From positions 4,345,001-4,409,000 of the forward strand of contig JAGUCH010000008.1 of assembly GCA_019096065.1 (NCBI GenBank): 64,000 nt of DNA, given 5' to 3'. Shown piece by piece: positions 19,725 through 57,680 of this stretch (within the stretch, counting starts at the first letter, position 1; the number at the start of each line of letters is the position of its first letter). Below the pieces are notes generated by a model that did not search any database, was not told where the DNA came from, and saw only the letters and a list, made by a program, of their open reading frames with translations. The translations under genes and the position numbers were made by a program. Source of the stretch: Paracyclopina nana (taxonomy: Eukaryota > Arthropoda > Copepoda > Cyclopoida > Cyclopettidae).

Positions 19725-19796
19725 GGCTCAATGGTCTAGGGGTATGATTCCTGCTTTGGGTGCAGGAGGTCCCGGGTTCAAATCCCGGTTGAGCCC
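19725..19796 (+). tRNA. tRNA-Pro (anticodon TGG)
   Basis: A complete cloverleaf can be drawn. The acceptor GGCTCAA pairs perfectly with TTGAGCC and is followed by discriminator C. The anticodon stem is CCTGC/GCAGG with loop TTTGGGT, giving anticodon TGG at 19757-19759. The T arm is CCGGG/CCCGG with loop TTCAAAT. No intron is present. A run of five T at 19801-19805 serves as the Pol III terminator. Confidence 0.97.
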
Positions 19797-24009: not shown

Positions 24010-24011
24010 CT

Positions 24012-24027
24012 CCCAGCGAACCCTTTT
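24012..24027 (+). repeat. Left terminal inverted repeat, copy A
   Basis: CCCAGCGAACCCTTTT. It is identical to the left end of copy B and inverted at both right ends. The next several hundred bases hold scattered ATCAAATTT, CAAATTTG and AAACTTGA words, candidate transposase-binding subterminal repeats. Confidence 0.9.
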
Positions 24028-24487
24028 CGAGGAAAGTGCGAGTTATCAAATTTCGTGTTTTATCGCAGTTATTGGCTTTTTATCAAATTTTTCCTCAAAA
24101 TTCGTTCGTAACAACTTTCAAATTGGATTTAAATCAACTTTGACCAAACAAATTTTACTCCATGAAAAGAAATTTAATAAAAATTCGTTTGAAATGACTT
24201 CTTTCAAACTTGATGACTGGAAATTTTCTCTCACATTATTTTTTTCAAATTTGAATAAACTTGTTTCTTCAAACTTAATTTTAAGTTGATACCTTTTACA
24301 AACTTGATAAAAATCTAAGACTTATAATTTTTTAAAAAAGATTTTAAAACATACATGCAATTTTATTTAATCTCCCGCATTCCTTTTATTTTGTTCCGCC
24401 GTCACTAAATTGAAATTACTTTCCAAAAAAATGTTGTGGTGATTTTATCAAGTGTTTTTTTGACTCGTTTAGAATTTTATTCACATT

Positions 24488-27442
24488 TTAAGTGTAGTAT
24501 ACATCGTTAGGAACAGAGATAAGCACATTACCGGCCAAAACAGCCTTACATAGTATTTTTCTTTTCAGGACTTTTACATCCTCATTGTTAACTTCATCCG
24601 CAACTTTAACGAACACATCATCCCAGTCCAAATCCGGTGCCTCAGGGGTGAAGAACTTTTTAGTGTAAATTTGATTGCAAATGTAATAGTCGCCTTCTGC
24701 ATCAAAAACAAAGTAGAATAATCCATCTCTTGTGCACACAATGTTGTTTGATCTTCGTTTTGGTCCTTTTCCTGCTACAGTGATCTTGTAGCCGCATGAA
24801 TGGTCGTTCATGTTGGATATGAAAGATTTAATCAAGCATTGCTTTGCAAAGCTTAAAGTGTACGGCTTGATTATCTTTTTTAAATATGAAAAATAGCTTT
24901 CAAAAGGCATGGCACTGAAATCACTGAGCGGACCAATTCGGCGAATCTCCAATAAGTGTGAGAACGTGTGAACATTAAAGGAGCAGTTCTTCTTTCCAAA
25001 GTTTCTTTCAAATAACTTGTAAAAGTCACTTTGCTTCCGGAAGGCAACAGATTCAGGCATTATTTGAGAAAAGATTGGGTCTGGCATAAGAGCGGCATGT
25101 ACAATGAAACAGAAATATAGCCATGTCTTTGTAACAGATTGGGGAACATAGGCTCGCATTGAGTAGTACATGTGAGAAAAGCCACAACATATTATTGCCA
25201 AAATTTCACTGGCCTTCAGATGTTTGAAGTTGTTAGTGATGCTTCTTGTAACTCGTGGAAATTCTTGCGGAATATTTTGGATTGTCCACAAGGCATCAAA
25301 CTTTTTTGCGATTTCTTTTCCAGTGCCATTGGAAATGTCTTTGGCATCATTGACATCCAAAACGAGGCCCATTAAGGCCCTGCCGACGCCTAGTGAGATG
25401 TTGTGCATCGGGTCGGGTACGAAATCTCGAATTATATCAAAATCTGTCAACTGGAGCAAAGGAGAAGTACCCTTAATACCAAAGCGTTCTCTTATGGCAA
25501 GACTGGGATCAGCTTCCAACTTTCTGGTGATCTCTAGCCACTCCTGGTGCGTTCGACGTTTATATCTTAGAGTGTCCGTTCCAAAACTCATCTTTTTATC
25601 TCTTTTCAAATATGTTCCAACGCAGTAACACCACTCACAGCTACAAAATCCGTTGTGCTGTTTCAGACACTTCATCTTGGCCCGCATCGGGCTGTCGCCA
25701 ATAAACTTCCTGACAACAAAGTTATTGTCAAGGCACTCTTGCAAGATTCGTCCACACAATTCAACAATATCAGTTGTCTGCCCTTTGCGGTATACATGGA
25801 TAGCCACCGGCCAAACTTTTCTACAAGGTAGAAATCGTAGCACGTTCATAAGGCAATCCGACGACTTGGCCAATGGTACTCCGTCCACAAAGAGATCGAC
25901 ATATTTCTTGCCGTTTACTTCACTTTTGATTCCATTTGGATGGACACTCAAGAAAAACTTGTACAACTCCGTCATCTCCACGGTCGACCACTCGCATAGT
26001 AAAACGTACCTTGGTCTCGGGTAACGTTTCCTTGGAAATTTAGAGCCGTTGTATTGAAAAGTCTTCTTAGTGACGTTGTCGTAGAATTCGTAGGTCATAT
26101 TGACTGGTGGAATGACCTTTTCAAACCGTTTCTTAATAGCTTTGTAACTTAAGAGCACTCTGTCACTTAATGACCTGGCGAAGTTCCAAAATGCCTTAGC
26201 TGCTCTATCCGTTACTGCTAGGATTGAGGCAAGGAAGAAGAATCTTGCATATAATGCTTGATTGCGCTCTTTTTGGGTTTTCAACTCGTTCTCTTTCTCC
26301 AACGCTTCTTTAAAGTCTTTCAAAGTAGTCCCGTGAAGCAGCAGAGCATTGTCTTCTTTTGGATCCGGCTCACCCTCCTCTTGAATTTCTTCCAAGGCGT
26401 CGTAGAACACATCCTCTTGCTCAACAGTTGGCATGTCCATCATTTCTTGCATGGTAACCTTTAAAGAGTGCCTATTGAGTTTTGAACAAGTTTACATAAA
26501 GAGAATGAGTTTGCTTACCGGCTCGCCATCGCAATCCTCATTTGGATCGGTAAGCTCATCAGACCGTTCATTTTCAATGAAATCTAATTGGTGGCCATGA
26601 TCATGAACTGTGCGTCGCTCATCAAAAATCAACGACGTGTCATCACTATCGTCTGGTGTATCATCCTCGTTCTTGTTTTCAGCTTGCGATTGAGTTTGAA
26701 TGTTGATCTTTCCACTAGATTGTGGATTTTCCAGTTGGTGAGTGTCACTACTTCTCCGCATGATGACTCCAGATGTACCGGGCTGTGGATTGTCCAAGTC
26801 CAAACTCTTTTCCATAGCTTTTCTTTCCCGCTTAGCTGCTATAAGGTCACTCAGTTCTGGCGTATCCAATGATTGACCTTCAGGCATCTCGGAAAGTGCT
26901 TCTTCAAACAGTTCATCGTCAGTGTCATCATCAAAAGACGGCGTCTCCTCATCAGGTCCGATATCACCGAGCGCTTCCAATTTTCGTTTCAAATTTTTTC
27001 GCAACAAGCGTTGATTGCGTTCAAGATCATTTTGGCCGGCTATCCTATCAAAGCTGTCGTCAGCCTCAACATTGCCGCTGTTGTCCTCAACATCGGCAGA
27101 TGACGAGCTCGATGTATTTTTCAAAACAGTAATGCAATCATTGATTGCATTTGGATCGTCACAGTTGAAAGGACAGATTTCCAAATGATTTCCAAACAAG
27201 TTACTGTCACGTAGCCTGTAAAGACGATGATTTTAGTGAGAAAGAATCTGCACAAAGTTAAAAATTACTTACGACTCCTCTGTAACTCCTTGCTGGCCTT
27301 GAAGCACTCGCACTTGAGCAGCACATCGATATTGTATTATTCGCAGCTTTCTGCGTGCTTCTCGAGCACGAATGCGATACCGAGCCTGCTTTGCAGCATC
27401 ACTTTCCTTCGCACCTTTTAATTTTTCTTTTTTCTTTGGCAT
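24488..27442 (-). CDS. DDE transposase of copy A (CACTA/EnSpm-Mirage-Chapaev-like)
   Basis: Three minus-strand exons join in phase: 27442-27273, 27215-26519 and 26458-24488, giving 945 residues. It should catalyse excision and insertion of the element in the nucleus. The N-terminus (MPKKKEKLKG, then a run rich in Arg and Ala) looks like a nuclear-localisation or DNA-binding segment. A 230-residue acidic, Ser/Asp-rich linker follows. The catalytic part has a first Asp in FVDGVPL (about 480), a second Asp in GDSPMRAKMK (543), a Cys cluster FCSCEWCYC that could bind zinc, DPMHN (640), and a Glu in SAMPFESYFSYLK (about 808). This order matches animal transposases of the CMC group as I know them. 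Compared with copy B it lacks two residues (NVLRFLPC instead of NVLCARFLPC). AATAAA on the minus strand lies 7 bp past the stop. Confidence 0.82.
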
Positions 27443-27859
27443 TTTGTTTTCACAGCAATGTCAACGTGGAGAAATCAATATGGCGTCGATACAATGATAA
27501 GCTTTTTTTTCGGTCGATACGAAAATGACAAAATTAAATTTAAAATCAAAAGTAATTAATTACATCAATTCGATTTCATTTAATATCTCAATTAAAGAAT
27601 TAATAAAAATTTCTTTTATTTTTAATTTTACAGTTTTTTTCGTGTCGCCCCTCAAAGCTGACGAAAATTTGATAAGAAGCGTTAGCGGCTGCCTTACTGC
27701 CCAGCGCAGCCTTACCGGCCCAACATTTGGCGGAACATTCCAGAAGGTTCGATAGCGTCCCCTTCTTATCAGTAGTCGCTCAGCTTCAAAGGTGAGAGGA
27801 CGCGCAAAATCTCAAAAAATCGACGCCATCTTGGAAATTGTTTTCAAAAAAAGAAAACG
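27443..27859. promoter_or_regulatory. Divergent promoter between the transposon's two genes, copy A
   Basis: The 417 bp between the two start codons must hold both promoters. The sequence TCGACGCCAT occurs in sense orientation 38 bp before the transposase ATG (27480-27489, minus) and 30 bp before the accessory ATG (27820-27829, plus, extended to GCCATCTT). GCCATCTT is the reverse complement of the AAGATGG core bound by YY1-type factors at start sites. Copy B has the same arrangement at 34088-34097 and 34428-34437. Confidence 0.55.
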
Positions 27860-30613
27860 ATGGCTCCGCGCAAGAAGAAGCCAACCGATACCGATACGAC
27901 GCCCCCTGATTCTCCGGGTGCTAAGTACGATAGGGTCGTATTCATCTGCTTGCGAGATCAAGAACCAGTCCTGTCGATGCCAATCGATCATGTCTATGGT
28001 GACGGCCAAACTTTGCAAGACGTTGCCAACTTTGATGGAAGCAAACGCTTGACTATCCAGCAGCGAGTGAAGGTGCACAACTTCATCTTTGACGAGACGA
28101 AGCCTCAAAAGGGCATGTCGATCTTCTGCCGAGTGCAGACAGGTAAGAAACGAATTTGTATTTCCTTGTTAATAAGTTTCTTATTTGTATTTTGTATTTC
28201 AGGCGTTGATCAATCGAGAGTTGATAGTTTAGTCAAAGACTTGAACTCTCGTTTCAAATCCCTTTCGTACCCGCAAAAGTCAGCCTTGAAGGCCTTGATG
28301 ATCAACAGTTGGGGAGAAAAGATGATGAAGGATTGGACGTACGACGAGAAAAATCCAATCACCAACAAGATCACGTACAAACCTTGGAATTCAGTTGGAA
28401 CTCGTGGCCGCGGCACTGAAGAGCTTCCAGTAACCACTGGAGCTGAGGATTCGGATGAGGATTTTCAGACTTCCAATGCGAAGAAAGGATCGAAGGCAAT
28501 CTTGTCTAGCTCCTCCGAGGGTGGGAGAACGCCCAGAAACGAATCGGTAAGTTTGGAATTTGTTTCAAAGTTGATCCAAATTTGATTCAAAGTCGATCGA
28601 AATTTGTTAGAAAATTCAATAATAATTCAATAACGCTCGTTTTCAGGACGTCCATTCAGGATCGTTCTTGCAGAATCCTTTCTTCACGCCTGGAACATCC
28701 AAGGATTCTCCATCGACCGGCAAGCTGCACGATCCTCAACCAAGCACTTCCAAAGGTCTTGGAAAGAAAACGGGAAAAATAGCCTCCCCAGCAGCAGCAA
28801 CGGTCATTGATTTGACCAAGGAGTCCGCCAAGGACAGCAGGAAGAGAAAGGCTGCTTCTGCCAAGAGCAAAAAGGTCGTGGAGGAAACGTCTGAATCTGA
28901 TTCCACGTTGACACCTTCACCTTCCAAGAGGCCAACTTTGGATTTGATGGCGCAAGGGATTTACTCCCAACAAGAATTGGCACCGAAGGATGCTGTTCCA
29001 TCTCAAGTTGCTGGGGCTTCTGGCGTAGTGCGAGCTCAATCAGGATCAACTGGTTCTCAAGGACAGGCGCAAGGCAATGTTCAAGGAGTTGATCAAGTGA
29101 TGTACGACATTGCCATCCCTCGAATGGTAAGTTTCGATGAATTGAACGTAAAATTTCTTTTCTAACTTGTTTACAACGTATTAGGATGTGCCTACTTACA
29201 CTGAGGCCATTGTCATTAGTGAGGAACAACTTGACAACAAGTTGAGGGCATTCCTTACAGACTACCACAGCATGGAGGTTCAAGCTGAATCCTTTAAGAT
29301 CGTCATTAAAGCGGCAGTCAAAGAGGCCATTGACGAAAAGCTGGACAACCTCAAGGTCTTCATCAAGGCTACTTTTGCTGAGGAAATCCAAAAGGTCATG
29401 GAAGCGATGTCTACCAAGGCAACTAAGGCCAGCACTGGGGTAAGCAATTCTTTATTATACGCGTGATGCCTTTTCTAACAAATTTAAAACTCGTTTAGAA
29501 AATTTTGGATGAACTGCGGGCGATTAAGGTTACGATCGAGGATTTCAGCATCGAGCAAGCTCGAATTCGTGGCCAAATCAGCAATATGACTGAGCATCAG
29601 GCAGAAAAAGAGTCCCGCTCATGTGGAATTCTAGGCAGATTCCTGCCATTTGATTTGATGGGACAAGGCTTTGATTTGTTCTGCTCCTCGCACACGTTCA
29701 GTCCAAGATTGTGTCTCTCATCAAGGACGAACTGTTGACCAATCCAAAAAAACTTCCCGTTGACGTGCAAATTGCTTTTGCATTCACCAATGGATTGTTG
29801 ACCCGCCTGGCAATGGCTCATCTTGTCTGGCGTCAGCCTAAGAAGTAAGTGTACTGATCAATGCATTTACTCGTTGGGTTGCAATATCAACCATTTGAAG
29901 CTTCTTCATTTCAAAGCATGATTTTCTTATTCGCATCATCATTCTAAATGTTTTGTACTTCTTTTTAATATAGTTCAAAGAAAGTCCTCTACTATAAGAG
30001 GAAGATTCCTGATGCCACTGAGAAGATCATCACCAAGGACATCATCCCGTTTGTCCGTGCCAATTTGGAACTCGGCGGTGAGAAGCGAATTGGATCCTTT
30101 GCTGGTGTGAAGAAGGTCATGACCAACCGGTTCAATAATGCTAGAACCAAGCAATTGGAACTTGCTTTCGAGGGTAACATCAACCCTGACCTTGGATTGG
30201 ATGCGCTGCACAGCATTGACAACGAATTTTATGTGCACAATGTTGTAAGTGTTGTTTTTAAATTATATCTTGCAAATTTGATTCAAACTTGATTTAAAAC
30301 GTTTATATTTTTCAGCATGCCATCCCTGAGTCTGAAATGGAGGATCGGCTCGTGTACAAGAGGAAGTTGTATGACTCTCGCGGCGAATGCAAGAATGCCT
30401 TTGACAACTACAAGCCTGGTGAGAAGTCAAAAACGGTTTCCAAAGATGAATTGGAGTTTCTCTTTGACTCCATGCGAGGCCCAAACTCGTCACGCAAGGT
30501 TTACACCAACTACGAGATCATGCAAGGCATTGTTGCTGCAGCCAAGGCCGATGGACTCGATGTTAGGAAAATGACCTTTGACCAGCCTTCCAACATGCCT
30601 GATGTAAGTACCT

Positions 30614-30629
30614 CCCAGCGAACCCTTTT
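30614..30629 (+). repeat. Left terminal inverted repeat, copy B
   Basis: CCCAGCGAACCCTTTT, starting directly after the CT that ends A's interrupted intron fragment. Confidence 0.9.
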
Positions 30630-31089
30630 CGAGGAAAGTGCGAGTTATCAAATTTCGTGTTTTATCGCAGTTATTGGCTTTTTATCAAATTTTTCCTCAA
30701 AATTCGTTCGTAACAACTTTCAAATTGGATTTAAATCAACTTTGACCAAACAAATTTTACTCCATGAAAAGAAATTTAATAAAAATTCGTTTGAAATGAC
30801 TTCTTTCAAACTTGATGACTGGAAATTTTCTCTCACATTATTTTTTTCAAATTTGAATAAACTTGTTTCTTCAAACTTAATTTTAAGTTGATACCTTTTA
30901 CAAACTTGATAAAAATCTAAGACTTATAATTTTTTAAAAAAGATTTTAAAACATACATGCAATTTTATTTAATCTCCTGCATTCCTTTTATTTTGTTCCG
31001 CCGTCACTAAATTGAAATTACTTTCCAAAAAAATGTTGTGGTGATTTTATCAAGTGTTTTTTTGACTCGTTTAGAATTTTATTCACATT

Positions 31090-34050
31090 TTAAGTGTAGT
31101 ATACATCGTTAGGAACAGAGATAAGCACATTACCGGCCAAAACAGCCTTACATAGTATTTTTCTTTTCAGGACTTTTACATCCTCATTGTTAACTTCATC
31201 CGCAACTTTAACGAACACATCATCCCAGTCCAAATCCGGTGCCTCAGGGGTGAAGAACTTTTTAGTGTAAATTTGATTGCAAATGTAATAGTCGCCTTCT
31301 GCATCAAAAACAAAGTAGAATAATCCATCTCTTGTGCACACAATGTTGTTTGATCTTCGTTTTGGTCCTTTTCCTGCTACAGTGATCTTGTAGCCGCATG
31401 AATGGTCGTTCATGTTGGATATGAAAGATTTAATCAAGCATTGCTTTGCAAAGCTTAAAGTGTACGGCTTGATTATCTTTTTTAAATATGAAAAATAGCT
31501 TTCAAAAGGCATGGCACTGAAATCACTGAGCGGACCAATTCGGCGAATCTCCAATAAGTGTGAGAACGTGTGAACATTAAAGGAGCAGTTCTTCTTTCCA
31601 AAGTTTCTTTCAAATAACTTGTAAAAGTCACTTTGCTTCCGGAAGGCAACAGATTCAGGCATTATTTGAGAAAAGATTGGGTCTGGCATAAGAGCGGCAT
31701 GTACAATGAAACAGAAATATAGCCATGTCTTTGTAACAGATTGGGGAACATAGGCTCGCATTGAGTAGTACATGTGAGAAAAGCCACAACATATTATTGC
31801 CAAAATTTCACTGGCCTTCAGATGTTTGAAGTTGTTAGTGATGCTTCTTGTAACTCGTGGAAATTCTTGCGGAATATTTTGGATTGTCCACAAGGCATCA
31901 AACTTTTTTGCGATTTCTTTTCCAGTGCCATTGGAAATGTCTTTGGCATCATTGACATCCAAAACGAGGCCCATTAAGGCCCTGCCGACGCCTAGTGAGA
32001 TGTTGTGCATCGGGTCGGGTACGAAATCTCGAATTATATCAAAATCTGTCAACTGGAGCAAAGGAGAAGTACCCTTAATACCAAAGCGTTCTCTTATGGC
32101 AAGACTGGGATCAGCTTCCAACTTTCTGGTGATCTCTAGCCACTCCTGGTGCGTTCGACGTTTATATCTTAGAGTGTCCGTTCCAAAACTCATCTTTTTA
32201 TCTCTTTTCAAATATGTTCCAACGCAGTAACACCACTCACAGCTACAAAATCCGTTGTGCTGTTTCAGACACTTCATCTTGGCCCGCATCGGGCTGTCGC
32301 CAATAAACTTCCTGACAACAAAGTTATTGTCAAGGCACTCTTGCAAGATTCGTCCACACAATTCAACAATATCAGTTGTCTGCCCTTTGCGGTATACATG
32401 GATAGCCACCGGCCAAACTTTTCTACAAGGTAGAAATCGTGCGCAAAGCACGTTCATAAGGCAATCCGACGACTTGGCCAATGGTACTCCGTCCACAAAG
32501 AGATCGACATATTTCTTGCCGTTTACTTCACTTTTGATTCCATTTGGATGGACACTCAAGAAAAACTTGTACAACTCCGTCATCTCCACGGTCGACCACT
32601 CGCATAGTAAAACGTACCTTGGTCTCGGGTAACGTTTCCTTGGAAATTTAGAGCCGTTGTATTGAAAAGTCTTCTTAGTGACGTTGTCGTAGAATTCGTA
32701 GGTCATATTGACTGGTGGAATGACCTTTTCAAACCGTTTCTTAATAGCTTTGTAACTTAAGAGCACTCTGTCACTTAATGACCTGGCGAAGTTCCAAAAT
32801 GCCTTAGCTGCTCTATCCGTTACTGCTAGGATTGAGGCAAGGAAGAAGAATCTTGCATATAATGCTTGATTGCGCTCTTTTTGGGTTTTCAACTCGTTCT
32901 CTTTCTCCAACGCTTCTTTAAAGTCTTTCAAAGTAGTCCCGTGAAGCAGCAGAGCATTGTCTTCTTTTGGATCCGGCTCACCCTCCTCTTGAATTTCTTC
33001 CAAGGCGTCGTAGAACACATCCTCTTGCTCAACAGTTGGCATGTCCATCATTTCTTGCATGGTAACCTTTAAAGAGTGCCTATTGAGTTTTGAACAAGTT
33101 TACATAAAGAGAATGAGTTTGCTTACCGGCTCGCCATCGCAATCCTCATTTGGATCGGTAAGCTCATCAGACCGTTCATTTTCAATGAAATCTAATTGGT
33201 GGCCATGATCATGAACTGTGCGTCGCTCATCAAAAATCAACGACGTGTCATCACTATCGTCTGGTGTATCATCCTCGTTCTTGTTTTCAGCTTGCGATTG
33301 AGTTTGAATGTTGATCTTTCCACTAGATTGTGGATTTTCCAGTTGGTGAGTGTCACTACTTCTCCGCATGATGACTCCAGATGTACCGGGCTGTGGATTG
33401 TCCAAGTCCAAACTCTTTTCCATAGCTTTTCTTTCCCGCTTAGCTGCTATAAGGTCACTCAGTTCTGGCGTATCCAATGATTGACCTTCAGGCATCTCGG
33501 AAAGTGCTTCTTCAAACAGTTCATCGTCAGTGTCATCATCAAAAGACGGCGTCTCCTCATCAGGTCCGATATCACCGAGCGCTTCCAATTTTCGTTTCAA
33601 ATTTTTTCGCAACAAGCGTTGATTGCGTTCAAGATCATTTTGGCCGGCTATCCTATCAAAGCTGTCGTCAGCCTCAACATTGCCGCTGTTGTCCTCAACA
33701 TCGGCAGATGACGAGCTCGATGTATTTTTCAAAACAGTAATGCAATCATTGATTGCATTTGGATCGTCACAGTTGAAAGGACAGATTTCCAAATGATTTC
33801 CAAACAAGTTACTGTCACGTAGCCTGTAAAGACGATGATTTTAGTGAGAAAGAATCTGCACAAAGTTAAAAATTACTTACGACTCCTCTGTAACTCCTTG
33901 CTGGCCTTGAAGCACTCGCACTTGAGCAGCACATCGATATTGTATTATTCGCAGCTTTCTGCGTGCTTCTCGAGCACGAATGCGATACCGAGCCTGCTTT
34001 GCAGCATCACTTTCCTTCGCACCTTTTAATTTTTCTTTTTTCTTTGGCAT
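31090..34050 (-). CDS. DDE transposase of copy B
   Basis: Exons 34050-33881, 33823-33127 and 33066-31090 give 947 residues, with the same motifs as the copy A protein: FVDG, GDSPMR, CSCEWCYC, DPMHN and PFESY. Apart from the added Cys-Ala before RFLPC I see no amino-acid change. The extra six bases create CGTGCGCAAAGCACG, a small perfect hairpin. All frames are open. Together with intact ends and a complete accessory gene, this makes copy B potentially autonomous. Confidence 0.83.
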
Positions 34051-34467
34051 TTTGTTTTCACAGCAATGTCAACGTGGAGAAATCAATATGGCGTCGATAC
34101 AATGATAAGCTTTTTTTTCGGTCGATACGAAAATGACAAAATTAAATTTAAAATCAAAAGTAATTAATTACATCAATTCGATTTCATTTAATATCTCAAT
34201 TAAAGAATTAATAAAAATTTCTTTTATTTTTAATTTTACAGTTTTTTTCGTGTCGCCCCTCAAAGCTGACGAAAATTTGATAAGAAGCGTTAGCGGCTGC
34301 CTTACTGCCCAGCGCAGCCTTACCGGCCCAACATTTGGCGGAACATTCCAGAAGGTTCGATAGCGTCCCCTTCTTATCAGTAGTCGCTCAGCTTCAAAGG
34401 TGAGAGGACGCGCAAAATCTCAAAAAATCGACGCCATCTTGGAAATTGTTTTCAAAAAAAGAAAACG
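34051..34467. promoter_or_regulatory. Divergent promoter, copy B
   Basis: Same 417-bp intergenic interval as in copy A, with the paired TCGACGCCAT elements at 34088-34097 (minus) and 34428-34437 (plus). I see no difference from copy A. Confidence 0.55.
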
Positions 34468-37400
34468 ATGGCTCCGCGCAAGAAGAAGCCAACCGATACC
34501 GATACGACGCCCCCTGATTCTCCGGGTGCTAAGTACGATAGGGTCGTATTCATCTGCTTGCGAGATCAAGAACCAGTCCTGTCGATGCCAATCGATCATG
34601 TCTATGGTGACGGCCAAACTTTGCAAGACGTTGCCAACTTTGATGGAAGCAAACGCTTGACTATCCAGCAGCGAGTGAAGGTGCACAACTTCATCTTTGA
34701 CGAGACGAAGCCTCAAAAGGGCATGTCGATCTTCTGCCGAGTGCAGACAGGTAAGAAACGAATTTGTATTTCCTTGTTAATAAGTTTCTTATTTGTATTT
34801 TGTATTTCAGGCGTTGATCAATCGAGAGTTGATAGTTTAGTCAAAGACTTGAACTCTCGTTTCAAATCCCTTTCGTACCCGCAAAAGTCAGCCTTGAAGG
34901 CCTTGATGATCAACAGTTGGGGAGAAAAGATGATGAAGGATTGGACGTACGACGAGAAAAATCCAATCACCAACAAGATCACGTACAAACCTTGGAATTC
35001 AGTTGGAACTCGTGGCCGCGGCACTGAAGAGCTTCCAGTAACCACTGGAGCTGAGGATTCGGATGAGGATTTTCAGACTTCCAATGCGAAGAAAGGATCG
35101 AAGGCAATCTTGTCTAGCTCCTCCGAGGGTGGGAGAACGCCCAGAAACGAATCGGTAAGTTTGGAATTTGTTTCAAAGTTGATCCAAATTTGATTCAAAG
35201 TCGATCGAAATTTGTTAGAAAATTCAATAATAATTCAATAACGCTCGTTTTCAGGACGTCCATTCAGGATCGTTCTTGCAGAATCCTTTCTTCACGCCTG
35301 GAACATCCAAGGATTCTCCATCGACCGGCAAGCTGCACGATCCTCAACCAAGCACTTCCAAAGGTCTTGGAAAGAAAACGGGAAAAATAGCCTCCCCAGC
35401 AGCAGCAACGGTCATTGATTTGACCAAGGAGTCCGCCAAGGACAGCAGGAAGAGAAAGGCTGCTTCTGCCAAGAGCAAAAAGGTCGTGGAGGAAACGTCT
35501 GAATCTGATTCCACGTTGACACCTTCACCTTCCAAGAGGCCAACTTTGGATTTGATGGCGCAAGGGATTTACTCCCAACAAGAATTGGCACCGAAGGATG
35601 CTGTTCCATCTCAAGTTGCTGGGGCTTCTGGCGTAGTGCGAGCTCAATCAGGATCAACTGGTTCTCAAGGACAGGCGCAAGGCAATGTTCAAGGAGTTGA
35701 TCAAGTGATGTACGACATTGCCATCCCTCGAATGGTAAGTTTCGATGAATTGAACGTAAAATTTCTTTTCTAACTTGTTTACAACGTATTAGGATGTGCC
35801 TACTTACACTGAGGCCATTGTCATTAGTGAGGAACAACTTGACAACAAGTTGAGGGCATTCCTTACAGACTACCACAGCATGGAGGTTCAAGCTGAATCC
35901 TTTAAGATCGTCATTAAAGCGGCAGTCAAAGAGGCCATTGACGAAAAGCTGGACAACCTCAAGGTCTTCATCAAGGCTACTTTTGCTGAGGAAATCCAAA
36001 AGGTCATGGAAGCGATGTCTACCAAGGCAACTAAGGCCAGCACTGGGGTAAGCAATTCTTTATTATACGCGTGATGCCTTTTCTAACAAATTTAAAACTC
36101 GTTTAGAAAATTTTGGATGAACTGCGGGCGATTAAGGTTACGATCGAGGATTTCAGCATCGAGCAAGCTCGAATTCGTGGCCAAATCAGCAATATGACTG
36201 AGCATCAGGCAGAAAAAGAGTCCCGCTCATGTGGAATTCTAGGCAGATTCCTGCCATTTGATTTGATGGGACAAGGCTTTGATTTGTTCTGCTCCTCGCA
36301 CTACGTTCAGTCCAAGATTGTGTCTCTCATCAAGGACGAACTGTTGACCAATCCAAAAAAACTTCCCGTTGACGTGCAAATTGCTTTTGCATTCACCAAT
36401 GGATTGTTGACCCGCCTGGCAATGGCTCATCTTGTCTGGCGTCAGCCTAAGAAGTAAGTGTACTGATCAATGCATTTACTCGTTGGGTTGCAATATCAAC
36501 CATTTGAAGCTTCTTCATTTCAAAGCATGATTTTCTTATTCGCATCATCATTCTAAATGTTTTGTACTTCTTTTTAATATAGTTCAAAGAAAGTCCTCTA
36601 CTATAAGAGGAAGATTCCTGATGCCACTGAGAAGATCATCACCAAGGACATCATCCCGTTTGTCCGTGCCAATTTGGAACTCGGCGGTGAGAAGCGAATT
36701 GGATCCTTTGCTGGTGTGAAGAAGGTCATGACCAACCGGTTCAATAATGCTAGAACCAAGCAATTGGAACTTGCTTTCGAGGGTAACATCAACCCTGACC
36801 TTGGATTGGATGCGCTGCACAGCATTGACAACGAATTTTATGTGCACAATGTTGTAAGTGTTGTTTTTAAATTATATCTTGCAAATTTGATTCAAACTTG
36901 ATTTAAAACGTTTATATTTTTCAGCATGCCATCCCTGAGTCTGAAATGGAGGATCGGCTCGTGTACAAGAGGAAGTTGTATGACTCTCACGGCGAATGCA
37001 AGAATGCCTTTGACAACTACAAGCCTGGTGAGAAGTCAAAAACGGTTTCCAAAGATGAATTGGAGTTTCTCTTTGACTCCATGCGAGGCCCAAACTCGTC
37101 ACGCAAGGTTTACACCAACTACGAGATCATGCAAGGCATTGTTGCTGCAGCCAAGGCCGATGGACTCGATGTTAGGAAAATGACCTTTGACCAGCCTTCC
37201 AACATGCCTGATGTAAGTACCTACCCTTTTTTTCAATGCCATAGCTTTACAAACTTAGGCTATAACAGATAGATTATTTAGTACCCAAATGGCCTTTTAT
37301 AATCTTTTAAACAAATTTCCATGTAGGTTCGTGTCATCTACAAGAAAGTCCTCGATGACAACATTGCCGACATGGATGCATTGCTCAGAAAGTTTCCTGT

Positions 37401-38242
37401 CGACACCAACATCAAGCGTGAGCGATCCGACAGCGAAAATGAAGAGGAACTTCAATTGCGTGACATTTCATTGGCAAGCAATTCTGGAGGATCTGATGAA
37501 GGAGACGATGAAGATGACGGCAACGTTGGCCAAGACGAGCAAGCAAGAGCTGTTGGAGATGACGAGTTTGGCGATGTGGAAGAGATTCTTGAAGAAGAAA
37601 CTGAAAGTCCTTCCGAATTTGATCGGAACATTGAGCAAGTCCCGCCGACCGAGGAGCATGAAGCGTCCCAAACTCCTGAAGATGAACGCATTCCAGTGGA
37701 ATTGAATTGGAAACCAACTGGAAATAGAGAGGAGATCAGGAAACAAGCAAAGAAGATCCGTGCTGCCATTGAGTGTGGCATTCCTGCCAAGATTGCCGCC
37801 GAAGCTGTCATGGGCATTCAACCTGAGCGCCCTCCATCGCCTGAGAAGAGAACCATCCCTCCACCATTGCCTCCAGTAAGCCCAAACTCATTCATACACC
37901 TTATAAATAGTTTATGTTTTTAAAACGTTTTCAAACTTTAATAAGTAGGAAAAGCTCAATTTTTTTATTTCTGAAGTTTTACTCGCACTTAATAACTGTT
38001 TCACTACTTAGATAATAAGTAATTACAACTTTATTTACAAAATGAATTTATCTCTTCTCCATAGTAATAGATGTTTCTTTCTTTTTCAGTTGCCAGAAAA
38101 TCCTTACGCCCTTCCTAACCCGTATGCTCACATGACCAATGAAGAGCTTGAAGCGCGCATCAAGGAGATTCAACGACGCACAATCTTGCAAAAAGAGTTG
38201 CGAGAGGCTGAGGAGGCTGCACGTCGCCAGAGTCAAGAGTAA
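34468..38242 (+). CDS. Transposon accessory protein of copy B, function unknown
   Basis: Nine exons join in phase: 34468-34750, 34811-35154, 35255-35734, 35793-36047, 36107-36453, 36583-36853, 36925-37212, 37327-37875 and 38090-38242, giving 989 residues. Features in order: a basic N-terminus (MAPRKKKP); a conserved-looking block with Trp-rich FKPWNS-like residues encoded by exon 2; a Ser/Thr/Pro- and Lys-rich disordered middle; a helical segment in exons 4-5; a Lys/Arg-rich block in exon 6 (VLYYKRKIPDATEKI); a charged block in exon 7; a very acidic exon 8; and a C-terminal coiled coil (NEELEARIKEIQRRTILQKE). I recognise no domain. Possible roles are terminal-repeat binding, transposase partner or chromatin factor, all inference. 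AATAAA lies at 38401-38406. Confidence 0.75.
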
Positions 38243-38832
38243 CAGTTTTATCCTGGATCCATGACTTTTCAAACAAGATTGGAATTCATCATTGCGTTAG
38301 AAGTCATGCATTGAAATAATTTCTATGTCACTTAAAAAAAAAACATTGTATTGCTAAAAATTTGTAAAAGTGTTTCAAACTTGAACCTTTGAAGTGTGTA
38401 AATAAAAGAGCGGCCTTTAAAAAAATTCAAAGTAGTTTGTATTTCATTTCAAAAAGGCCGAAAAGGCCAATGGAGTAGAAAGATTATTATCATGTTTCAA
38501 ATAAATTTGCAAAATTTAATGGTTCCATCGGATCGGCTTTGGCATCGGCTTTTGACAAATTTTTATCAAATTTGTATTCGCTTTCAAATTTGATGTCATC
38601 AACTTTCCTGCAAATAAAAAACATGTTTCTAATAACTTTAAAATATGTTTCCAATGCTTCAATTTCTTTCTTGATGAATCAAATTTATATTAAATTTTTG
38701 TCATCTTTCAGAAAGACATTTATTCATCAAATTTAGTATAGATTCCGTGTTACCAAAACAATAATAACAAACAAATTCCAAAATGAACTTATCGACAAAT
38801 TATTTATAGCTTTGAATCGGATTTCATTTTCA

Positions 38833-38848
38833 AAAAGGGTTCGCTGGG
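38833..38848 (-). repeat. Right terminal inverted repeat, copy B
   Basis: Reverse complement of the left end, followed by CT and then the continuation of copy A. Confidence 0.9.
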
Positions 38849-40460
38849 CTACCCTTTTTTTCAATGCCATAGCTTTACAAACTTAGGCTATAACAGATAG
38901 ATTATTTAGTACCCAAATGGCCTTTTATAATCTTTTAAACAAATTTCCATGTAGGTTCGTGTCATCTACAAGAAAGTCCTCGATGACAACATTGCCGACA
39001 TGGATGCATTGCTCAGAAAGTTTCCTGTCGACACCAACATCAAGCGTGAGCGATCCGACAGCGAAAATGAAGAGGAACTTCAATTGCGTGACATTTCATT
39101 GGCAAGCAATTCTGGAGGATCTGATGAAGGAGACGATGAAGATGACGGCAACGTTGGCCAAGACGAGCAAGCAAGAGCTGTTGGAGATGACGAGTTTGGC
39201 GATGTGGAAGAGATTCTTGAAGAAGAAACTGAAAGTCCTTCCGAATTTGATCGGAACATTGAGCAAGTCCCGCCGACCGAGGAGCATGAAGCGTCCCAAA
39301 CTCCTGAAGATGAACGCATTCCAGTGGAATTGAATTGGAAACCAACTGGAAATAGAGAGGAGATCAGGAAACAAGCAAAGAAGATCCGTGCTGCCATTGA
39401 GTGTGGCATTCCTGCCAAGATTGCCGCCGAAGCTGTCATGGGCATTCAACCTGAGCGCCCTCCATCGCCTGAGAAGAGAACCATCCCTCCACCATTGCCT
39501 CCAGTAAGCCCAAACTCATTCATACACCTTATAAATAGTTTATGTTTTTAAAACGTTTTCAAACTTTAATAAGTAGGAAAAGCTCAATTTTTTTATTTCT
39601 GAAGTTTTACTCGCACTTAATAACTGTTTCACTACTTAGATAATAAGTAATTACAACTTTATTTACAAAATGAATTTATCTCTTCTCCATAGTAATAGAT
39701 GTTTCTTTCTTTTTCAGTTGCCAGAAAATCCTTACGCCCTTCCTAACCCGTATGCTCACATGACCAATGAAGAGCTTGAAGCGCGCATCAAGGAGATTCA
39801 ACGACGCACAATCTTGCAAAAAGAGTTGCGAGAGGCTGAGGAGGCTGCACGTCGCCAGAGTCAAGAGTAACAGTTTTATCCTGGATCCATGACTTTTCAA
39901 ACAAGATTGGAATTCATCATTGCGTTAGAAGTCATGCATTGAAATAATTTCTATGTCACTTAAAAAAAAAACATTGTATTGCTAAAAATTTGTAAAAGTG
40001 TTTCAAACTTGAACCTTTGAAGTGTGTAAATAAAAGAGCGGCCTTTAAAAAAATTCAAAGTAGTTTGTATTTCATTTCAAAAAGGCCGAAAAGGCCAATG
40101 GAGTAGAAAGATTATTATCATGTTTCAAATAAATTTGCAAAATTTAATGGTTCCATCGGATCGGCTTTGGCATCGGCTTTTGACAAATTTTTATCAAATT
40201 TGTATTCGCTTTCAAATTTGATGTCATCAACTTTCCTGCAAATAAAAAACATGTTTCTAATAACTTTAAAATATGTTTCCAATGCTTCAATTTCTTTCTT
40301 GATGAATCAAATTTATATTAAATTTTTGTCATCTTTCAGAAAGACATTTATTCATCAAATTTAGTATAGATTCCGTGTTACCAAAACAATAATAACAAAC
40401 AAATTCCAAAATGAACTTATCGACAAATTATTTATAGCTTTGAATCGGATTTCATTTTCA

Positions 40461-40476
40461 AAAAGGGTTCGCTGGG
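40461..40476 (-). repeat. Right terminal inverted repeat, copy A
   Basis: Reverse complement of CCCAGCGAACCCTTTT. It is followed by CT and then host sequence ACCTAATGATG. Confidence 0.9.
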
Positions 40477-40478
40477 CT

Positions 40479-51193: not shown

Positions 51194-53174
51194 ATGCTAT
51201 CGAGAAAGTATTGTCTCGTTTTCCTACTTTGGAAATTGGCAAAAGCTAGCTTTCTTAAGGAATTGATTCAATTCAATCGCCCTAATTGTGTCATCTACAT
51301 GGGCAATGCATTGGAGCTGGAAAATGCTGCTCACGAATATTTGCACCATAATTCTCATCAGTTGTTTATCAATTATGAAGAGTTCGGAAAAGGCCTAGAT
51401 TTTACTACTGTGGTGCACGAAAGGATTCACGGGTGCAGAAATGCTACTGCAGTGTTTTTGTCAAGCCACCAATTATTGGCTAATCACTCACATAATAATG
51501 CTTTCATGACAGTAAACAATTTAAAAACACCGTGCATGTACTATCATAACATATATACAATTTTTATGATTGTCAGGGCCTCAAGTGGTACTTTCCTTTG
51601 GGTATGAATATTGGTCTGGAGCTGAGGATTGATGCTGAATATTATTTCTACAAAGTTTTCAATGACACCTATGGAGAAATCAGCGAGACGTACCGAATTG
51701 ACCGCGATATTTTAGTTGAGAGTGTAGTTTCGATATGGAGAAAAGGCATCGGCTTTTCCCATGAAAAAGAGCCCAATTTACTTGAAAGAAGAGGCCAAGA
51801 CTTGAGAGGCGTTCATTTCAAAACTGTGGCAGCAAATCTCAAGCCAAATTCTTTTTTCGACGAGTATGACGAAAGCACCTTTGTCATCGAGAACATCCAA
51901 GGTCTCATCCCTAGCTTAATTAATTCCTTGAGCAAATCGATCAATTTCACATATACGACCTACGCATCCTTCAGTTATGGAGTGCTTTTTCAAAATGGCT
52001 CCTGGTCACCAGGCATAATTGATGAGTTGATGAAACACAAGGTAAAAAATACGTCCAAAACGGAGCTATATGAAAAATATTTACATTTGATTCTCCATAG
52101 TATGACTTTAGTAATACTGTGCTTGGAATGTCATCTGTGAGAAGCAATGCCATCGATTTTACCATTCCAATCATGACATATGAAGCTAAGCTATTTATAA
52201 TCAAGCCCAAAGAGTCTTTGAATTTTTTCACCTTTTCTCGAGTTTTGACCGCCTCCTTTTGGCTCATTATAGCTGCAACATTTGTGGCCATGGCCTCGGT
52301 GATTTTCTTGTTTTCAAAGTTTATTCAATTGCACGATGAAGAGCATGAGCCTTTTGGAATCACCAATGCTTTAGCAGTTCCAATTTTGGCTCTGTTCAGC
52401 CAACCCTATCCACTCAGAGCAAAAGGAGTGGCATCGAAAATACTCATTTTCACCATTTTGATCACCAATTTTGTCATCTACGTGGCTTATTGTGCAGCTC
52501 TCACCTCAATTCTGACCCTGGACATGTTTGAGGCTCCGATTCATGAGTTGAAAGATGTCATACCACAAGGTTACAAAATGCTCCTTTGGAAAGGCACCAC
52601 GTACGAGTCCTATTTTAGGGAAGCCCTGCCAGGCACTGTGAACAACGAGGTAACTAATTATCGTATTAAAAGTGTAGAATACTAAGAGTAAATTGGAATT
52701 AATGAGGTGTGGAAAGCTTTGATTGAGCCTCATCTTCATGAGTATCCCGAAACTCTATCTGATTGCTGGGACCTAATGCTGAAATCAGATAGGACTGCAT
52801 TTTTCGGTGCTGTAACCCAATCAATCAGTGTCATTAAAGAGCTCGCAAAACGGGACCACGAAGATTATCTATGCTCAGTGGTGATTCTGCCAGTGAACTA
52901 TTTCTCGCTCTACTTGGGGGTTGCCCTGCCCAAAGGATCTCAATGGAAGGCCATATTTGATTATCACTTCTTGAAGATGCTGGAAACGGGGGAATTGGAC
53001 CGTTTTCTCGAATTGTACATGCCCAGCGAGCCAAACACGTGCTCTTCGTTGACCACAGAGATTGGCTACTCCCGATCCATTTCTGCCTTCTTGTTGCTGG
53101 GTGCAGGTGCACTCGTGGCGTTGGTCTACCTCCTGTGCGAAAAGCTATCACATCGGATGAAAACAGGAAAATAA
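51194..53174 (+). CDS. Divergent ionotropic receptor (IR family)
   Basis: Four exons with all introns in phase 0: 51194-51511, 51577-52041, 52101-52649 and 52707-53174, giving 599 residues. The product should be a ligand-gated cation-channel subunit in chemosensory dendrites. A hydrophobic N-terminus (MLSRKYCLVFLLWKL) could be a signal peptide. The short extracellular part lacks a full amino-terminal domain, as in tuning IRs. M1 is about residues 309-334, the pore loop about 350-365 (NALAVPILALFSQPYP), and M2 about 374-398, ending YCAALTSILTL, the equivalent of the SYTANLAAFLT motif. The second ligand-binding lobe follows and M3 is about 571-588. The ligand-binding residues of true glutamate receptors are not evident. 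The stop codon overlaps an AATAAA. Confidence 0.87.

Positions 53175-57680
<4,506 letters not shown>

Follow-up and report, generated by a model that had tools for sequence, protein, structure and literature searches.

In maize, double Ds (hAT superfamily) reportedly consists of one DNA transposon lodged within an identical copy of itself, the two lying in inverted orientation. A nest of the same general kind, but with both copies in the same orientation, is found in a 64,000-nucleotide stretch of the genome of the copepod Paracyclopina nana (assembly GCA_019096065.1, contig JAGUCH010000008.1, positions 4,345,001 to 4,409,000 of the forward strand; hereafter the window, whose numbering is used below). 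Here one complete element, copy B, sits within a second element of the same family, copy A, and the closest match in print is to the TRC elements. According to the available portion of their description, TRCs have CCC inverted repeats, 2-bp direct repeats, a length of 4.5–9.2 kb, and a transposase with a CXXC motif, and include SmTRC1 of Schistosoma mansoni and the TRCs of Aedes aegypti and Tribolium castaneum (PMC1636069). Spongebob (EnSpm-4N1_HM) of Hydra was assigned to TRC by its authors and has a 2-bp target duplication, as given in the accessible part of that report (PMC4298943). Sly1-1 of Neurospora crassa, in the consulted sections of its source, encodes a transposase of the CACTA-Mirage-Chapaev (CMC) group with C(2)C and H(3)H motifs alongside a divergent second gene, the function of which is unknown (PMC4592977). 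The ends of CMC/CMCT (CACTA-Mirage-Chapaev-Transib) elements are 5′-CA..TG-3′ in most cases, a feature that is usual rather than obligatory (PMC12730594).

Copy A (8228 bp) occupies 24012–30613 (6602 bp) and 38851–40476 (1626 bp) on the plus strand and is interrupted by copy B (30614–38848, plus strand, 8235 bp). A sequence-only reading of the window had placed B inside A in exactly this way, and the junctions and lengths read in the window are as it gave them. Both copies share the 16-bp inverted ends CCCAGCGAACCCTTTT, located in A at 24012–24027 (plus) and 40461–40476 (minus) and in B at 30614–30629 (plus) and 38833–38848 (minus), and each is bordered on both sides by CT (A: 24010–24011 and 40477–40478; B: 30612–30613 and 38849–38850). 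The shared ends and CT borders were likewise part of the sequence-only reading and stand, with CT now refined to a 2-bp target duplication that varies between copies. Each copy carries a predicted transposase gene and a divergently oriented partner gene, and the insertion point of B, with its left CT, lies in intron 7 of A's partner gene, ten bases downstream of exon 7 (GTAAGTACCT); the insertion left A's transposase gene untouched and added 8.2 kb to this intron. Removal of B had been proposed to restore the intron sequence present in B itself, and the empty target site (GTAAGTACCTACCC...) is indeed kept inside B, in the stretch starting at 37199. Comparison of B with the window returned B itself and the two parts of A, and nothing further; the window contains no N letters.

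When aligned globally, base by base, A and B differ by exactly four events and are 99.98% alike; about four differences in 8.2 kb had been estimated beforehand. Two are substitutions, one outside the genes (A 24376/B 30978) and one coding, in exon 7 of the partner gene (A 30380/B 36989). The others are a 6-bp block (A 25839/B 32441) and a 1-bp block (A 29694/B 36302), both present in B only, which account for the 7-bp excess of B over A as previously reasoned. Within the assembly, the nested insertion is confirmed as real, and it looks recent and is unusually clean and young: the anatomy of the nest, together with only two substitutions and two indels, supports the recent activity that had been proposed.

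Both predicted genes read open in B, whereas A is damaged in both, with a frameshift in the partner gene and the loss of two conserved transposase codons. In A's partner gene, the 1-bp indel (29694, plus strand) causes a frameshift in exon 5. Of 26 close places in the genome, 25 have this exon unbroken, the exception being A, where it is split between two frames. The last exon of A's transposase (24488–26452, minus strand) is open but two codons shorter than that of B, and the two residues lost are present in all 22 rows of a transposase alignment. At the coding substitution A has Arg and B has His, with Arg in three of four fetched relatives and Cys in the fourth. At both indels B thus agrees with the relatives, as A does at the one substitution that was polarised, the non-genic difference (24376/30978) lying outside this comparison. 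As each copy has changes private to it, A and B share a common source from which each has since been altered; B as a copy of present-day A is ruled out by this agreement of each copy with the relatives where the other departs from them. With both predicted genes open, it is plausible that B is still mobile.

A and B very probably represent a single CACTA/TRC-like DNA transposon, of which they are recent sister copies, with B having transposed into A. By cut-and-paste chemistry, a DDE transposase would excise the element at the CCC...GGG ends, and insertion at a staggered 2-bp cut would generate the 2-bp duplication. The first copy, A, would have entered host DNA at CT, and a separate second copy, B, would then have entered A at CT within the intron. 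A 587-bp query found four places in the genome, comprising the two window copies (100%) and two others at 73–74%; as only two close copies were found, the donor of B was presumably a sister chromatid, a homologue, or a copy since lost or absent from the assembly. An excised element that inserts into itself yields deletion or inversion circles, as described for Sleeping Beauty and piggyBac in the available part of the source (PMC3952818). These published products, although from other transposons, rule out insertion of an excised element into itself, and two copies are therefore needed for the A/B nest. The shared orientation would create four pairs of left and right ends: A–A (16.5 kb), B–B (8.2 kb), A left–B right (14.8 kb), and B left–A right (9.9 kb).

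Further copies with these ends, a survey for which the sequence-only reading had suggested, were sought with the exact 12-mer CCCAGCGAACCC on both strands of the 92-Mb genome, the reversed 12-mer serving as control. The 12-mer occurs 32 + 31 times and the control 1 + 1 times; the ends thus lie far above chance. Of these 63 sites, 58 could be paired by us as inward-facing ends to give 29 elements (a set selected by exact end match), a second nest among them. Full length (7.9–8.8 kb, with A counted without B) is seen in 22, and the other seven are short (1.3–1.6 kb, one counted without its insert). Matching 2-bp flanks border 25 of the 29, as against a mean of 3.7 and a maximum of 12 in 10,000 shuffled pairings. 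The duplications take ten different sequences (CT, five; TA, five; CA, four; AA, three; AT and GA, two each; GG, AG, AC, and TG, one each), and the five CT cases among the 25 matching pairs include A and B. CT is thus a 2-bp target duplication varying between copies, and a fixed CT flank is ruled out. In a check free of end selection, CCCAGCGAACCC was present on both ends in 22 of 25 elements found by their transposase at 55% identity or more; the other three are tandem units, two of which (L024 and L025) end in the variant CCCCACGAACCC, while L027 has the same junction. Five single ends have no exact-match partner (C1:4112905, C1:9933017, C7:979804, C8:6330741, and C9:5354369, where C numbers denote contigs).

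The predicted transposase gene of B (31090–34050, minus strand) comprises three exons (34050–33881, 33823–33127, and 33066–31090) and encodes 947 residues under predicted splicing. The predicted acceptor of exon 3 is weak (TTAAAG); the matching frame is open for 831–963 residues in several relatives. A search of the genome with a 656-residue part of the protein gave at least 68 matches, the counts being lower bounds as 67 of 237 first-look candidates were scored. In an alignment of 22 transposases (that of the window plus 21 of 30 fetched loci, near-duplicates and damaged ones being left out), D190, D255, and E520 are invariant, and every row has a CxxC after the second Asp (after GDSP), an HxxxH, and the glutamate of FE(S/A)(Y/F)FS; we infer from sequence which aspartates would be catalytic. 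Judged by this DDE, C(2)C, and H(3)H signature, the predicted transposase belongs to the CMC group. Weak Pfam matches were disbelieved, namely Tricorn_C1 in six of the 22 (best E 0.0023) and three other families with E values no better than 0.011.

Within the CMC group, the element appears TRC-like in its CCC ends, 2-bp duplications, CXXC motif, and length range. In addition, eight of ten bases of the Aedes TRC end CCCAGTCAAC, as shown in the available text, are the same as those of the A/B end. The A/B family differs from TRCs in that Pfam Transposase_21 (PF02992) is not recognised: no match was obtained in window open reading frames (ORFs) or predicted full-length proteins, or, at E 0.1, in the 22 aligned members. 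A genome-wide scan with PF02992 likewise gave no hit, but neither did its control. The published TRC motif I is strictly present in none of the 22, all of which have F.DG(V/I)P, with a later WP in 21; box A is strictly present in five and, in relaxed form, in all 22. The available portion of the TRC description does not mention a divergent two-gene layout. Formal TRC membership is thus not claimed, as Transposase_21 is unrecognised and motif I is not strictly matched. The duplications fall within the 2–5 bp of CMC/CMCT elements (2 bp in 25 of 29 pairs and 3 bp in two more), but the ends are CC..GG rather than CA..TG in all 29, these pairs having been chosen by that end. Hydra Spongebob has CCC ends (CCCAGCCAACATTGAC), and nine of its first ten bases are identical to the A/B end; it differs in that the accessible part of its report gives a 5.8-kb consensus, 441 listed copies, and a broken transposase, whereas the A/B family is low in copy number with frames mostly open.

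The partner gene of B (34468–38243, plus strand) has nine predicted exons (34468–34750, 34811–35154, 35255–35734, 35793–36047, 36107–36453, 36583–36853, 36925–37212, 37327–37875, and 38090–38243) and encodes a predicted 989 residues; the donor of exon 6 has three near-equal variants under predicted splicing. Matches to its ORFs (PSK_trans_fac, E 0.0047, and others) and to the full protein (Tfb5, E 0.21) were disbelieved, the former as falling below their cut-offs and the latter as weak. Exon 5 has 74 matches in the genome, 26 of which are places at 48% identity or more, and 25 of these 26 fall in the 25 elements found by transposase. Of 47 weaker rows, at least 20 have a listed transposase no more than 6 kb away when the tables are compared by hand. 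The occurrence of exon 5 beside transposases, in both close and weaker rows, argues that the two-gene layout is old. The lone relative (C2:13097629–13097934, minus strand; 55% identity) lies in a 267-residue open frame and has no transposase nearby among those scored. Sly1-1 resembles the A/B family in its divergent two-gene layout and few copies, although in the sections consulted it is an 11.5-kb fungal element.

Between the two genes lies a central divergent region (34051–34467), a putative promoter, which holds a third CCCAGCG at 34308; these first seven bases of the ends recur once inside B and are possibly a binding site for self-regulation. Plant CACTA (En-Spm) elements have ends beginning CACTA, where the A/B family has CCCAGCG, and carry subterminal repeats. 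CAAAYTTG appears to provide such repeats in B, occurring four times in the left 476 bp (30614–31089) and five times in the right 605 bp (38244–38848), against 0.23 and 0.26 in shuffled sequence; it is also enriched in the introns of the partner gene. By analogy with TnpA of plant CACTA elements, the partner protein may be a comparable accessory factor.

A second nest, on C2, consists of an 8136-bp element (4510471–4518606) inside a short element of 1331 bp. Its empty counterpart is preserved in a short copy on C4 (7519880–7521240), whose right 312 bp match at 100% identity and whose left 1017 bp match at 96%. The transposase of the inner element contains a stop, and a clean 2-bp duplication is absent from its flanks.

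Several findings weigh against the reading of A and B as transposed sister copies of a CACTA/TRC-like element. The nested junctions are those of the assembly; for the transposase, neither a Pfam transposase domain nor a relative of solved structure was found, a profile search of solved structures giving a best E of 0.34; and a structure predicted for the 656-residue part from single sequence was useless (mean predicted local distance difference test score, 34.4). Furthermore, in four of the 29 pairs, all full-length, the flanks do not form a clean 2-bp duplication: there is no match at C2:4510471, a 1-bp match at C3:4184630, and a 3-bp match at both C7:2952627 and C7:4915137. Two copies 99.98% alike in one place are a hard case for assemblers, and one element may have been duplicated, or two haplotypes mis-joined, by the assembly. 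Such an artefact is improbable, however, for it would have to set both breaks at the outermost base of the inverted repeats, add a 2-bp duplication, and leave an empty site in B; moreover, the differences sort as changes of A in two genes and of B in one, and the case on C2 is independent, with its empty site kept in a third copy. Tandem or segmental duplication, or gene conversion, is less credible still. A related element has indeed been amplified in tandem in this genome, as three units on C2 with 7-bp joints, but duplication does not set an entire element, inverted ends and 2-bp duplication included, in the middle of another, and A's host flanks are not repeated around B in the comparison of B with the window.

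The family may prefer its own DNA, through local hopping or attraction to bound transposase, rather than having hit it at random, although such a preference is less likely than not. Two nests among 29 elements compare with 0.06 expected for random landing (Poisson P of about 0.002, or 0.014 when just one third of the genome is taken to tolerate insertion), although there are only two, they were counted after the fact, and the family size is our rounded sum. CCCAGCG in the centre of the element, and CAAAYTTG in introns as well as near the ends, would also fit such a preference; on the other hand, selection removes an insertion less readily from a transposon than from a gene.

In our grouping, about 17 lineages, with one to three copies each, make up the 25 elements located through their transposase. 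Ten between-lineage pairs gave a fourfold-site identity of 0.27–0.34 and an amino-acid identity of 0.61–0.89, and shuffling gave a fourfold-site identity of 0.27–0.28 in five of these pairs. The lineages are old and, on these sequence comparisons, most are saturated at silent sites. In 20 of the 25, at least 640 of the 656 transposase residues searched are matched without interruption, the other five being stopped, truncated, or split. A and B are the closest pair among the compared elements with CCCAGCGAACCC, others being 99.0%–99.5% alike over 1.5–3.9 kb. It is conceivable, if rather doubtful, that some 17 old lineages have been kept working at one to three copies, landing in their kin, with nesting limiting copy number and no burst and decay, B having entered A's partner gene either before or after the frameshift there; low copy number and strong constraint could also arise from horizontal transfer or from a large segregating pool.

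Related elements occur in other arrangements. At about 2.564–2.589 Mb on C2, three related elements of about 8.3 kb (L024, L025, and L027) lie head to tail, with units 1–2 and 2–3 joined by the same 7 bp, TTAATAT, between the variant ends. A family about 42%–44% alike in transposase, with ends CCCCACTAAGTG (L028/L029 and L033/L034), has copy pairs that are 100% identical over 3864 bp and 99.8% over 3933 bp; given such near-identical pairs, this family also looks young. Two short elements (L037 and L047) have the same ends as the A/B family and an internal tandem repeat open in several frames. Elsewhere in the window, one tRNA was identified with Rfam (19725–19796), and from their translations we take the ORF at 174–917 to be receptor-like, those at 51598–53174 to be ionotropic-receptor-like, and that at 56925–57680 to be a forkhead ORF. 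Telomere-type repeats in the genome are TTAGG (5073 + 4205) with no TTAGGC, corresponding to arthropod-type chromosome ends.

The self-insertion is an ordinary kind of event in an already known kind of element. To the sequence-only reading are added the CACTA/TRC-like family, the two-gene anatomy, the damage to A as against the open genes of B, the variable duplication, and the second nest. The locus offers a clean, datable self-insertion with all diagnostic parts present, in a family that, from the sequence of B, still looks functional. If B moves, it would provide a CACTA element occurring naturally, and at low copy number, in an animal, with which the role of the partner protein could be tested. 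The 29 end pairs and 25 close transposases form a data set on old lineages persisting at very low copy number with no obvious decay.

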